Positions 2,052 to 5,682 of a DNA stretch of 64,000 bases are shown in pieces (within the stretch, counting starts at the first letter, position 1; every line of letters begins with the position of its first letter). The notes beneath the pieces are model-generated. The model saw only the letters and a list, made by a program, of their open reading frames with translations. It did not search any database and was not told the origin of the DNA. The DNA comes from Prosthecobacter debontii (GTDB taxonomy: Bacteria; Verrucomicrobiota; Verrucomicrobiia; Verrucomicrobiales; Verrucomicrobiaceae), in NCBI GenBank assembly GCA_945860295.1, contig CAMAQH010000006.1, positions 62,001 through 126,000 of the forward strand, read 5' to 3'. Both the position numbers and the translations under genes were made by a program.

Positions 2052-3080
2052 TTAAACCGACTTGGCTGCTGGTGGCGTGGATTCATCTACCGCCAGCGGC
2101 GATGATTCGGTAGCTTCTGGAGTTTGAGTAGGCTCAACCGCTGGAGTAGTCGCAACTTCTGGCGAAGCCACCGGCTCATGATGGTCGTCGTCGTGATGAT
2201 CTTCTTCGGAGTGAAGGTTCTCGCGTGGATCATGACCTTCTGCATGCAGAATATCTTTCTGATCGGTGACGCCTTTGAGGTGGGCACGGAACTTGCGATG
2301 GCGCTGACGCTCGGGAAGCGGGCTGATCTGCATGTTGATGTTACGACCAGCCATCTTGGGTTCTTGATCTGGATGACCCATGGTCAGCAAGTCGGCTTTG
2401 ATCCGAGCGGCCAAGGCGTGACCAAGTTCTTGATGCGCCATCTGACGACCACGGAACTGGAGTTGGAGGCGCACTTTGTGGCCTTCAGCGAGGAAGTCTT
2501 CAGCGTGGGTGATTTTGATTTTGTAGTCGTGCGGGTCGATGCCGATACGGAACTTCATCTCCTTCACCTTGCCGCCCTTTTGATGCTTGTGGGCTTCCTT
2601 CTTCTGCTTTTCCAGCGAGTACTTGTACTTGCCGTAATCAATGATTTTGCAAACCGGTGGGTCAGCCGTGGCGGCGACTTCAACTAAGTCCAGGCCGCGC
2701 TCGCGAGCCATGCGTAGAGCTACGGAGGTGACGAGCACGCCGTATTGCTGATGAGTGATGCCATCGACCACACGCACTTTCGGCGAACGGATTCGGTCAT
2801 TGATGCGTGTCTGGTCCACGTAGCGGCCATTGGGCGGCCTATGATTGCCCTGCCCGCTCATCGGCGGTCGGCTGCCACCCATGGGTGGTCGGTAGGCTCC
2901 CTGAGTGCCCGCTGGCCGTGGGCTGTTAGCCGCGCCGGTGGCACCTGCTGGGCGCTGAGCAGGCGTTGGTCCGCCAGTCCCACCTGCGGCAGGCGCAGGC
3001 TGTGAAGGTGGCGGAGTGCTGCCTTGATTTGGACGACCAGGGAATTGGCCGCTACTCAGATTATTGAATGGATTGCTTAT
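2052..3080 (-). CDS. infC: Translation initiation factor IF-3, ATA start, long N- and C-terminal extensions
   Basis: The IF-3 core is unmistakable: RINDRIRSPKVRVVD, DPPVCKIIDYGKYKY and FRGRQMAHQELG, covering about residues 88-268 of 342. The start is placed at ATA (3078-3080) because GGAGGT lies five bases upstream (3086-3091), the reading frame is open back to a TGA at 3117-3119, and no ATG, GTG or TTG lies between that stop and 3080. The first in-frame ATG, at 2882, has no ribosome binding site. Translation from ATA gives MSNPFNNLSSGQFPGRPNQG, then a Pro/Gly/Ala/Gln-rich tail before the core. IF-3 genes in many bacteria use rare starts (AUU in E. coli) so that IF-3 represses its own synthesis; that this applies here is inference. 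The C-terminus carries a His/Asp/Glu/Pro/Thr-rich tail of about 65 residues beyond the usual end. The usual rpmI-rplT neighbours are absent. Confidence 0.85.
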   Translation of the reverse strand: MSNPFNNLSSGQFPGRPNQGSTPPPSQPAPAAGGTGGPTPAQRPAGATGAANSPRPAGTQGAYRPPMGGSRPPMSGQGNHRPPNGRYVDQTRINDRIRSPKVRVVDGITHQQYGVLVTSVALRMARERGLDLVEVAATADPPVCKIIDYGKYKYSLEKQKKEAHKHQKGGKVKEMKFRIGIDPHDYKIKITHAEDFLAEGHKVRLQLQFRGRQMAHQELGHALAARIKADLLTMGHPDQEPKMAGRNINMQISPLPERQRHRKFRAHLKGVTDQKDILHAEGHDPRENLHSEEDHHDDDHHEPVASPEVATTPAVEPTQTPEATESSPLAVDESTPPAAKSV

Positions 3081-3120
3081 GGGGGACCTCCAGGTGGTTT
3101 GGGCTTCGGTAGAAGGTCAT
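3061..3120 (-). CDS. Possible upstream leader ORF overlapping the infC start
   Basis: A 19-codon ORF, MTFYRSPNHLEVPHKQSIQ, with ATG at 3118-3120 preceded by GAGAGGT at a good distance. It reads through the infC ribosome binding site and the ATA start in another frame and stops (TAA, 3061-3063) 15 bases past the ATA codon. It contains CCC-C immediately before ATA; a +1 slip there would join it to the infC frame. Whether it is translated is unknown. It could be a regulatory leader peptide, a coincidence, or the true N-terminus through frameshifting. Confidence 0.35.
   Translation of the reverse strand: MTFYRSPNHLEVPHKQSIQ
3086..3091 (-). promoter_or_regulatory. Ribosome binding site deciding the infC ATA start
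   Basis: GGAGGT on the minus strand, five bases before ATA. It is one of the strongest Shine-Dalgarno matches seen in this window, where most genes have weak or no such site. Confidence 0.7.
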
Positions 3121-3462
3121 GATTGACCTCTCGAAAATCGGACTCGCGTATGGCACAGGACAGTCAGGCATATCAGACCGTGCGGACTCGCGTTAGCATA
3201 GACGACTCATCCCTTTCCCGATCATGCGGGTTGGTGTGAGAAGAGAAAAATAAAGTCATGCAAAGAAAAATCGCGGTGTGGAAATCTTTGGCTTGATAGC
3301 TTGAAGTTCCGGCTGACAAAGCTGCCAGCTTTTCCACAACGCGACTTGTAACCACTTTCTTGGCTTCGGGCAAGATGATTTACCACAAAGTCTCGACTCA
3401 TTCGATGATTGAGAACTGCATTTTTCCTTTCAGTCGCGTATCATGCGCATCATTCTCTGATC
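3121..3462. other. Divergent intergenic region between infC and the protease gene
   Basis: About 340 bases with no convincing gene. It must hold the infC promoter (leftward) and the protease promoter (rightward), but I see no clear -35/-10 pair. A loose repeat, ACTCGCGTATGGCA and ACTCGCGTTAGCA, occurs at about 3143 and 3187. Confidence 0.4.
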
Positions 3463-5682
3463 ATGCGCACGTTCTATTATATAACCCTCACGGTCTTCGT
3501 TATGTCAGGCTCACTGGTTTCTGGCAAGACTACGAAGTCCAGCCCGGCGCTGAAGTCGGTGGAGCAAATCGCAGCCGAGGTGAAGCCTTCCGTGGTGAAG
3601 ATCTTGCAGGCGGGGCGCGCTGGGCTTGATGGTTTGGGCACGGGCTTTGTCGTGAGCAAGGATGGCCTGATCGCGACAAATCTGCATGTCATTGGTGAGG
3701 CTCGGCGATTGGAAGTGGAGATGAGTGATGGTACGAGGCATGAGGTGATAGAGATCAGTGCCACCGACTCACACTGGGATCTGGCGCTGCTACGGGTGGC
3801 GAGCGCTGAGCTGAAACCTTTGATCCTAGCAGATAGTGATGAGGTGAAGCAGGGCCAGTCAGTGGTGGCGATGGGCAATCCTGAAGGACTTGGTTTTAGC
3901 ATTGTGGACGGAGTGGTTTCAGAGTTCCCAGACATCGTCAATGAGGTGCCGATGATTCGTCTGGCGATGCCAATCGAACGAGGTAATAGCGGCGGGCCAT
4001 TGCTGGATCGCCAGGGACGTGTGCTGGGCCTCTTGACCATGAAATCGGCTGTCACGGCGAACCTCGGTTTTGCTATGCCGGTGAATGAATTGAAGCGACT
4101 GATCGAGAAGCCGAATCCTGTGCCGATGGCGCGCTGGCTAACCATCGGCGTGCTCAATCCACAGCTCTGGCAGCCATCACTCGGTGCGCGCTGGACACAG
4201 CATTCGGGCATCATTCAGAGCAGCACGATGGGGTCAGGTTTTGGCGGAAGAACGCTGTGTTTGTCAGGGGCTGCATTGCCTGAGGAAACGTACGAAGTGG
4301 CGGTGAATGTGAGGCTCGAAGACGAGTCGGGTGCTGCCGGGCTTGTCTTCAGCGCGCAGGATGACGATCATTATTACGGCTTCTATCCTTCCAACGGTAA
4401 GCTGCGTTTCACACGCTTTGAGGGGCCTGATGTGTACTCGTGGACGGTGCTCTCGGAATTTGCTTCAGAGGCCTATCGTTCCAGTCAGTGGAATCATCTG
4501 CGTGTCCGTGTGGAACCTGGAAAAATAACGGCCTGGGTGAATGCGCAGCGTGTGCTGGTGCATGAAGATACGGCGCTGCGCGGTGGCCGTGTGGGGTTGT
4601 GTCGCTTTCGTGCGCCGATGGCTGAGTATCGTGGTTTTCGATTGGGCGCTGATCTTGCTGAGAAACCAGTGCCTGAGGCGCTGGCGGGTACGATTGAAAA
4701 AGCTCTGGATCAGTTTTCTGCTAGCAGGGGTGCTCGCGAGCCGACGCTGGACACATTGCTGGATGATCCGTCAGCATCACGTCGCGTATTGACTGATCGT
4801 CGCCGAGAATTGGAGCGTCAAAGCGCAGCTCTGAAGGATCTGGAAAAGGATCTGCACCGGCGAAGCATCACGCGCGATTTATTGACTGAGCTGGCGAAAC
4901 CCGAGGACAACATCGACCTCATGAGAGCAGCCCTGTTACTGGCTCGGCATGACAATCCTGAGGTCGATGTGCCGCAATACTTGCAGCAGTTCACCCGCAT
5001 GGTGGATGAATTGAAGTCTTATCCCGAGATCGCAAAAGGCACCGCATCTGCCGTGAAGCGCCTGAACCGTTACCTCTTTGATGAAGGCGGCTATCATGGC
5101 AGCCGACATGATTACGAGAGTAAGGCCAATAGCTACGTCAGTGAGTTGCTAGATGATCGTGAAGGTCTGCCCATCACGCTTTCGGTGCTTTACCTCGAAC
5201 TGGCTGCGCGTTTAAACGTTCCTCAGGTGTATGGTGTGCCTTTGCCGGGTCGATTCATGGTTGGCTACAAAGATGGACCCGAGGGTGAACTGGTGCTGCT
5301 GGATGTTTTTAATAAAGCTAAAAAGCTCACGGTCGAGCAAGCGGCCATGGAACTCACGGAGCGTGGTGAACTGGACAAAGAATACCTCGAACCTGCGACG
5401 AAGCGCAGCATCATCCTGCGCATGCTACGCAATCTACTGAGTAGCACGATGGATCAGGAGACGGCGGTGAAAGAGACATTGCCGTATCTGGATCTCGTCG
5501 TCGCCGTCGAGCCTGAGTCATCTGTGGAAAGACTCACTCGCGCACAGATGAATCAGCGTCTCGGCGACAAGGCAGCAGCCCGCGCGGACGTGCAGTGGAT
5601 CATCGAGCACTTCCCTGAATCGGGTCCAGATGAACTGAGAGCCCAACTCGATCAATGGATGCAGGCGCTGAGGCAGGATTAA
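3463..5682 (+). CDS. Secreted trypsin-like serine protease fused to a LamG-like domain and a SirB1 transglutaminase-like domain
   Basis: A 739-residue exported protein. ATG 3463 gives a signal peptide (MRTFYYITLTVFVMSGSLVSG); an in-frame TTG at 3409 would add 18 residues. Residues 40-215 are an HtrA/DegP-type chymotrypsin fold with His75 (NLHVIG), Asp106 (WDLALL) and Ser176 (RGNSGGP). No PDZ domain follows. Instead, residues 240-400 look like a concanavalin/LamG or DUF1080-type sandwich (GLVFSAQDDDHYYGFYPS). Residues 500-650 are a SirB1/Transglut_core2 domain (YYESKA-like start, LPITLSVLYLELAARLNVP, GVPLPGRFMVGY), and the end resembles a TPR (LTRAQMNQRLGDKAAARADV). The protease likely acts in the periplasm; the combined role is not known. 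It stands alone between infC and the ABC permease. Confidence 0.8.
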   Translation: MRTFYYITLTVFVMSGSLVSGKTTKSSPALKSVEQIAAEVKPSVVKILQAGRAGLDGLGTGFVVSKDGLIATNLHVIGEARRLEVEMSDGTRHEVIEISATDSHWDLALLRVASAELKPLILADSDEVKQGQSVVAMGNPEGLGFSIVDGVVSEFPDIVNEVPMIRLAMPIERGNSGGPLLDRQGRVLGLLTMKSAVTANLGFAMPVNELKRLIEKPNPVPMARWLTIGVLNPQLWQPSLGARWTQHSGIIQSSTMGSGFGGRTLCLSGAALPEETYEVAVNVRLEDESGAAGLVFSAQDDDHYYGFYPSNGKLRFTRFEGPDVYSWTVLSEFASEAYRSSQWNHLRVRVEPGKITAWVNAQRVLVHEDTALRGGRVGLCRFRAPMAEYRGFRLGADLAEKPVPEALAGTIEKALDQFSASRGAREPTLDTLLDDPSASRRVLTDRRRELERQSAALKDLEKDLHRRSITRDLLTELAKPEDNIDLMRAALLLARHDNPEVDVPQYLQQFTRMVDELKSYPEIAKGTASAVKRLNRYLFDEGGYHGSRHDYESKANSYVSELLDDREGLPITLSVLYLELAARLNVPQVYGVPLPGRFMVGYKDGPEGELVLLDVFNKAKKLTVEQAAMELTERGELDKEYLEPATKRSIILRMLRNLLSSTMDQETAVKETLPYLDLVVAVEPESSVERLTRAQMNQRLGDKAAARADVQWIIEHFPESGPDELRAQLDQWMQALRQD

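Follow-up and report, generated by a model that had tools for sequence, protein, structure and literature searches.

How does translation of infC, the gene for initiation factor IF3, begin in Prosthecobacter debontii, and what would the codon used there mean for control of the gene? We analysed a 64,000-nucleotide stretch of this genome (the window), in which the infC frame on the minus strand opens with ATA behind GGAGGT. Judged from the letters and their relatives, infC translation most likely begins at AUA, preceded by a strong ribosome binding site. The positions of the features discussed are collected in Table 1.

Table 1. Features at and around the infC start in the window, with positions on the window and the basis of each assignment.
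Feature	Position	Strand	Basis or remark
infC coding sequence	3080-2052	minus	342 residues plus stop codon; ends with TAA 2054-2052
Shine-Dalgarno sequence GGAGGT	3091-3086	minus	5 nt (five C) before ATA
ATA, start codon of infC	3080-3078	minus	ATA, ATT or ATC in 61/61 family loci with GGAGG
In-frame TGA closing the infC frame upstream	3119-3117	minus	sequence
ATG, first canonical in-frame start	2882-2880	minus	rejected as start
N-terminal extension, 89 codons, Pro/Gly/Ala-rich, ahead of the IF3 core	3080-2814	minus	core model; pN/pS
Codons 1-5, ATH AGC AAT CCA TTC	3080-3066	minus	nucleotide-level conservation in the family
Stretch of raised conservation, -20 to +15	3100-3066	minus	60 rows

The product is readily recognised as IF3. 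The IF3_N and IF3_C domains occur in that order, both above cut-off (PF05198, 92.2 bits; PF00707, 97.6 bits), solved IF3 chains align to residues 92-254, counted over the 341 residues after the start codon, and the curated infC family TIGR00168 also matches above its cut-off (G000, E = 9.3e-56). This is the single IF3 match in the genome. Among the 288 genomes, 285 scored above the TIGR00168 cut-off, and these were the same 285 that had any match to it. One genome, G208, carries two infC matches on two contigs (L095 on G208:C69, and another on G208:C54), reflecting either a second copy or contamination. The position of infC beside rpmI and rplT is a common context, not an essential one. That infC-rpmI-rplT arrangement is absent here: rplT sits on contig C34, and infC lies on C6, a contig of 186,399 bases, with over 60 kb to either end, where it is flanked by genes for an AraC-type regulator and for a trypsin-like protein. 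The latter, divergent from infC (3409-5682, plus strand), carries a trypsin-like domain (PF13365) fused with one of transglutaminase-like type (PF13369). At its C-terminal end (2052-2315, minus strand), IF3 has a tail of approximately 87 residues past IF3_C with a His/Asp-rich stretch, HSEEDHHDDDHHEP, and similar His/Asp stretches are present in the IF3 tails of L003, L012 and L071.

The original prediction was that GGAGGT lies five bases before ATA in a frame open back to a stop codon, with no ATG, GTG or TTG available upstream. These coordinates were borne out, and none of the twelve codons from the TGA to the ATA is canonical; the TGA also rules out any in-frame start 5' of the ATA in the window. 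Following the ATA, the minus strand reads AGC AAT CCA TTC AAT AAT CTG. The 3' end of this genome's 16S rRNA bears the matching CCTCC, and once ATH codons (ATA, ATT or ATC) are allowed, the ATA is the best candidate of the infC frame, with an anti-Shine-Dalgarno pairing of -10.0 kcal/mol. The best pairing for canonical starts in the first third of the frame is only -1.9 kcal/mol. The string GGAGG-N6-ATH was seen six times in the window against 4.64 expected, with 31 of 100 shuffles reaching six, a count not beyond chance. Because the short string alone is within chance, the start call in the window rests on the reading frame and on conservation.

Conservation was assessed in genome family f1, which we take to be the Verrucomicrobiaceae. 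Of 68 genomes searched, 64 had an IF3 match, and 62 loci were analysed (the partial matches in G025 and G030 were omitted, and the additional fragments in G012 and G057 were not counted). At 61 of these 62 loci, GGAGG is followed by ATH six nucleotides on (seven in three loci), as ATA in 32, ATT in 26 and ATC in three. ATG, GTG or TTG is the first candidate at the GGAGG spacing in none of the 61, with L024 also carrying a GTG in an overlapping site one base off. The sole exception, L080, has no GGAGG and has ATA as its only in-frame candidate; its omission gives 61 rows for codon conservation, the family tree and pN/pS, and 60 rows were used for start-region conservation. The family tree requires at least 12 changes among ATA, ATT and ATC, and contains no row with ATG. 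An internal isoleucine codon would likewise predict exchange among these three codons without ATG, and that reading is excluded only where a stop lies at or downstream of the Shine-Dalgarno sequence. Such a stop is present in 12 of the 61 loci, no canonical codon lies between the ATH and the IF3 core in 26, and nine loci have both features; because of this combination, these nine cannot start IF3 canonically upstream of the core. A canonical in-frame codon upstream of the ATH is present in 14 of the 61 relatives. By these alignments, the near-cognate ATA start is kept in relatives as the ATH class. The ATA/ATT/ATC class and the SNPF-like N-terminus, whose conservation in relatives had been put forward as a check, are both conserved in the family.

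A start at the ATA gives IF3 an N-terminal extension, and this segment evolves as coding sequence. Across 12 disjoint f1 pairs (811 codons, with the distant, odd pair L012/L090 included), pN was 0.072 and pS 0.381 for the extension, and the remainder of infC gave 0.038 and 0.317, respectively, in the same pairs. The start-to-core distance, measured to the core model, varies between 19 and 105 codons among the 61 f1 loci, and at least 84% of the residues in the 46 long-form extensions are P, G, A, Q, N, S, T or R. Substitution patterns of this kind indicate that the extension is translated protein under constraint. An extension of 66 residues had been predicted; the extension itself stands, but its length does not, as 66 is the count from the ATA to the internal methionine codon ATG 2882, whereas the IF3 core is reached after 89 codons including the start. 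This ATG, being the first canonical codon in the infC frame, could be taken for the true start of IF3 (as could another canonical codon), leaving the extension untranslated. Such a start is barely credible given the coding constraint on the extension, the weak Shine-Dalgarno pairing of the canonical codons in the frame, and the 26 of 61 relatives whose extension has no canonical codon; ATG 2882 was rejected on these three grounds. Gene prediction limited to ATG, GTG and TTG would trim the infC extension or set a false start.

The strength of the infC ribosome binding site was gauged against other genes. Among 42 long open reading frames in the window, a canonical start in the first third pairs at -9 kcal/mol or better in five. 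As a control, rplT was examined in 30 genomes, a non-random set picked by infC type, where it starts with ATG in all 30 and reaches -6 kcal/mol or better in four. In eight f1 genomes, pairing for rplT spans -6.6 to +0.9 kcal/mol versus -10.8 to -10.0 kcal/mol for infC. From the rplT and window comparisons, infC couples an unusually strong Shine-Dalgarno sequence with an unusually poor codon.

This coupling extends well beyond the family. We scored 192 loci of the phylum (a set that includes the family loci and omits the named-genome loci L032-L062), ranking seven candidate codons solely by Shine-Dalgarno pairing with a threshold of -6 kcal/mol. A start at the threshold or better was found at 135 loci, of which 130 are ATH (ATT 52, ATA 46 and ATC 32); the others are CTG (2), GTG (2) and TTG (1), with no ATG. 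The remaining 57 loci, where start calls are uncertain, have no strong Shine-Dalgarno sequence, and canonical infC starts fall mainly among them: 38 have a canonical codon in frame as well, and 19 have only ATH or CTG. Four of the 57 carry an ATH at -5.8 or -5.9 kcal/mol (L100, L116, L117 and L121). A mechanism that relies on a strong Shine-Dalgarno sequence leaves unexplained 18 loci with only ATH or CTG in frame and no such sequence. Loci with only ATH and no detectable pairing make up part of L186-L224 (for example L198, L205, L208, L214, L219 and L220), from other families of the order.

The phylum tree was built from 149 of the 192 rows, with L100, L116, L117 and L121 hand-counted as ATH and five rows classed as 'other' left outside the change count. 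On this tree, at least eight changes between AUH and canonical codons are needed. One 22-row group (98*), with rows from families f6, f8, f12, f13, f15 and f16, has 21 rows with a canonical codon and no Shine-Dalgarno sequence and one with a doubtful CTG. AUH was also dropped in four f2 rows (GTG), two f42 rows and rows of f7 and f11, and a canonical codon also turns up in isolated rows elsewhere on the tree. Because this 22-row clade and several smaller groups have dropped AUH, a feedback loop through the start codon is not indispensable. AUH appears to be replaced mainly where the strong Shine-Dalgarno sequence is missing, and the lineages that switched to ATG or GTG offer natural tests of IF3 feedback kept versus dropped. 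Through much of the phylum, a poor infC start appears to be kept by selection, paired with a strong Shine-Dalgarno sequence.

Within the family, conservation around the start is also evident at the nucleotide level. When two of the 46 long-form rows encode the same residue at a position, they also use an identical codon for it at frequencies of 1.00, 0.87, 0.96 and 1.00 for codons 2 to 5, and of 0.37 to 0.72 across codons 6-16. In the 61-row alignment, all 53 serines at codon 2 are encoded by AGC, and CCA encodes 52 of the 53 prolines at codon 4; none of the 11 further conserved proline columns listed has CCA in more than 15 of 54. Upstream, the adenines at -20 and -19 are conserved in 0.87 and 0.93 of 60 rows, and RNA folding gives an openness of 0.62 for the region from -15 to +6, above the 0.50 of mononucleotide shuffles (60 rows). 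The -20 to +15 span would match the footprint of an initiating 30S subunit in size, and selection probably acts on initiation here.

The start region has a further property, which suggests another route to infC. The AUH codon overlaps a stop codon (TAA in ATAAGC, TAG in ATTAGC) that could end an upstream open reading frame, and infC would then be translated by termination-reinitiation. An out-of-frame ATG open reading frame runs over the infC start in 53 of 61 rows, with its ATG near -85 to -94 in many of them. Over the 27 codons before the start (60 rows), stops number five in the frame stopped at the start region, 45 in the second out-of-frame reading and 61 in that of infC; in a control stretch further up (59 rows), the respective counts are 67, 61 and 44. 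The +1 frame is the longer one in 29 of 32 ATA rows and the +2 frame in 19 of 26 ATT rows, with the three ATC rows outside this comparison. These raw upstream-frame counts are not independent. In tests that allow for kinship, the association of codon with frame has a median p of 0.22 over independent pairs, and thinned row sets give p values of 0.63, 0.22 and 0.04 depending on the threshold. In a pair simulation, the upstream frame stayed open in 18 of 18 usable pairs against 13.1 expected; the 19 pairs were hand-picked, one being too diverged, and they excluded L004, L011, L074 and L075, whose upstream frame closes near the start.

Several other observations argue against this route. In a clade of 12 rows, the upstream frame shows no sign of coding (N/S 0.94, codon-position pattern absent), and the window itself is an exception, with its upstream ATG frame continuing to +20. 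The upstream ATG also sits in a GATATG-like motif (GATATG, GACATG or GATCATG at -115 to -75) that 35 of 61 rows share, and this motif may belong to a promoter and not to the mRNA. We consider it very improbable that infC is reached by termination-reinitiation. A fuller form of the idea, which we regard as likewise very improbable, joins two features in Prosthecobacter and its kin. An RNA element from about -20 to +15 would hold the nucleotides of codons 1-5 constant, apart from the third base of the start, and the start would overlap the stop (as AUAA or AUUAG) of a short upstream open reading frame whose peptide is not conserved. Whether AUA or AUU is used would then depend on the frame of that upstream reading frame, and the termination-reinitiation would be sensitive to IF3. 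In the window, a TGATATG lies approximately 90 nucleotides 5' of the infC start (3169-3175, minus strand) and may be part of a promoter. A promoter and terminator scan of 3060-3420, using the sigma-70 consensus for promoters, found nothing, and no Rfam family was detected in the window at the gathering threshold.

The reading we prefer, and think likely, is that infC is translated from the AUA at 3080-3078, where a strong Shine-Dalgarno sequence together with a codon that IF3 discriminates against would give IF3 feedback. The start site, the conservation of AUH with a strong Shine-Dalgarno sequence, the lack of AUG in the family and the constraint on the extension are established at the level of sequence comparison; repression of the AUA codon by IF3, and with it the feedback loop, would follow by analogy with E. 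coli and others. A near-perfect Shine-Dalgarno helix (GGAGGU) would dock the 30S subunit at a near-cognate start, AUA, AUU or AUC. With free IF3 plentiful, initiation at AUH would be destabilised and infC translation would drop, whereas with IF3 scarce, the strong Shine-Dalgarno sequence would permit initiation. The net effect would be to keep IF3 at a steady level.

The main rival accepts the AUA as the true start but has it merely fix a low, constant yield of IF3, with no feedback. Reporters for three other genes of S. aureus, described in PMC13009471, gave a non-AUG yield of approximately 10% of that of AUG in poor medium. Rejection of such codons is, however, IF3's own role, as set out in PMC5472188. 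A low yield alone also fails to explain the coupling of a weak codon to an exceptionally strong Shine-Dalgarno sequence, and the absence of any change to AUG. We judge this rival unlikely. The conservation of an AUH start with a strong Shine-Dalgarno sequence fits the known way in which IF3 limits its own production.

Non-AUG genes have reportedly been surveyed by Gvozdjak and Samanta (arXiv:2008.10758). For infC starts in Verrucomicrobiota, we found no paper in the open-licence PMC literature, the coverage of which is limited. Published accounts describe several infC genes of this codon class. In E. coli, the AUU start makes the gene self-regulating via IF3 (PMC5472188), and the likeness to E. 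coli drawn in the original prediction is apt, both being IF3 genes with a near-cognate AUH start for which self-repression by IF3 is proposed. Unlike E. coli infC, the gene here has AUA, a long N-terminal extension, and rplT on a separate contig, and its regulation is inferred. A further likeness, drawn from the published description and not from sequence, is S. aureus infC of another phylum, where an AUA start was located by retapamulin ribosome profiling, with a Shine-Dalgarno sequence predicted to direct it, and autoregulation was called likely but only presumed (PMC13009471). Starts of the same codon class, again in other phyla, are described for infC of Streptomyces (AUC; PMC5472188), B. 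subtilis (AUU; PMC1805508), Listeria (ATT; PMC13068326) and Xanthomonas (ATT; PMC5559785). The expectation of another non-AUG infC in a distant phylum is supported, with an ATA start here and ATH kept at 61 of 62 family loci. An AUA start in infC thus has a precedent in S. aureus, and what the present comparison of loci adds is its conservation, as the AUH class, widely through the phylum.
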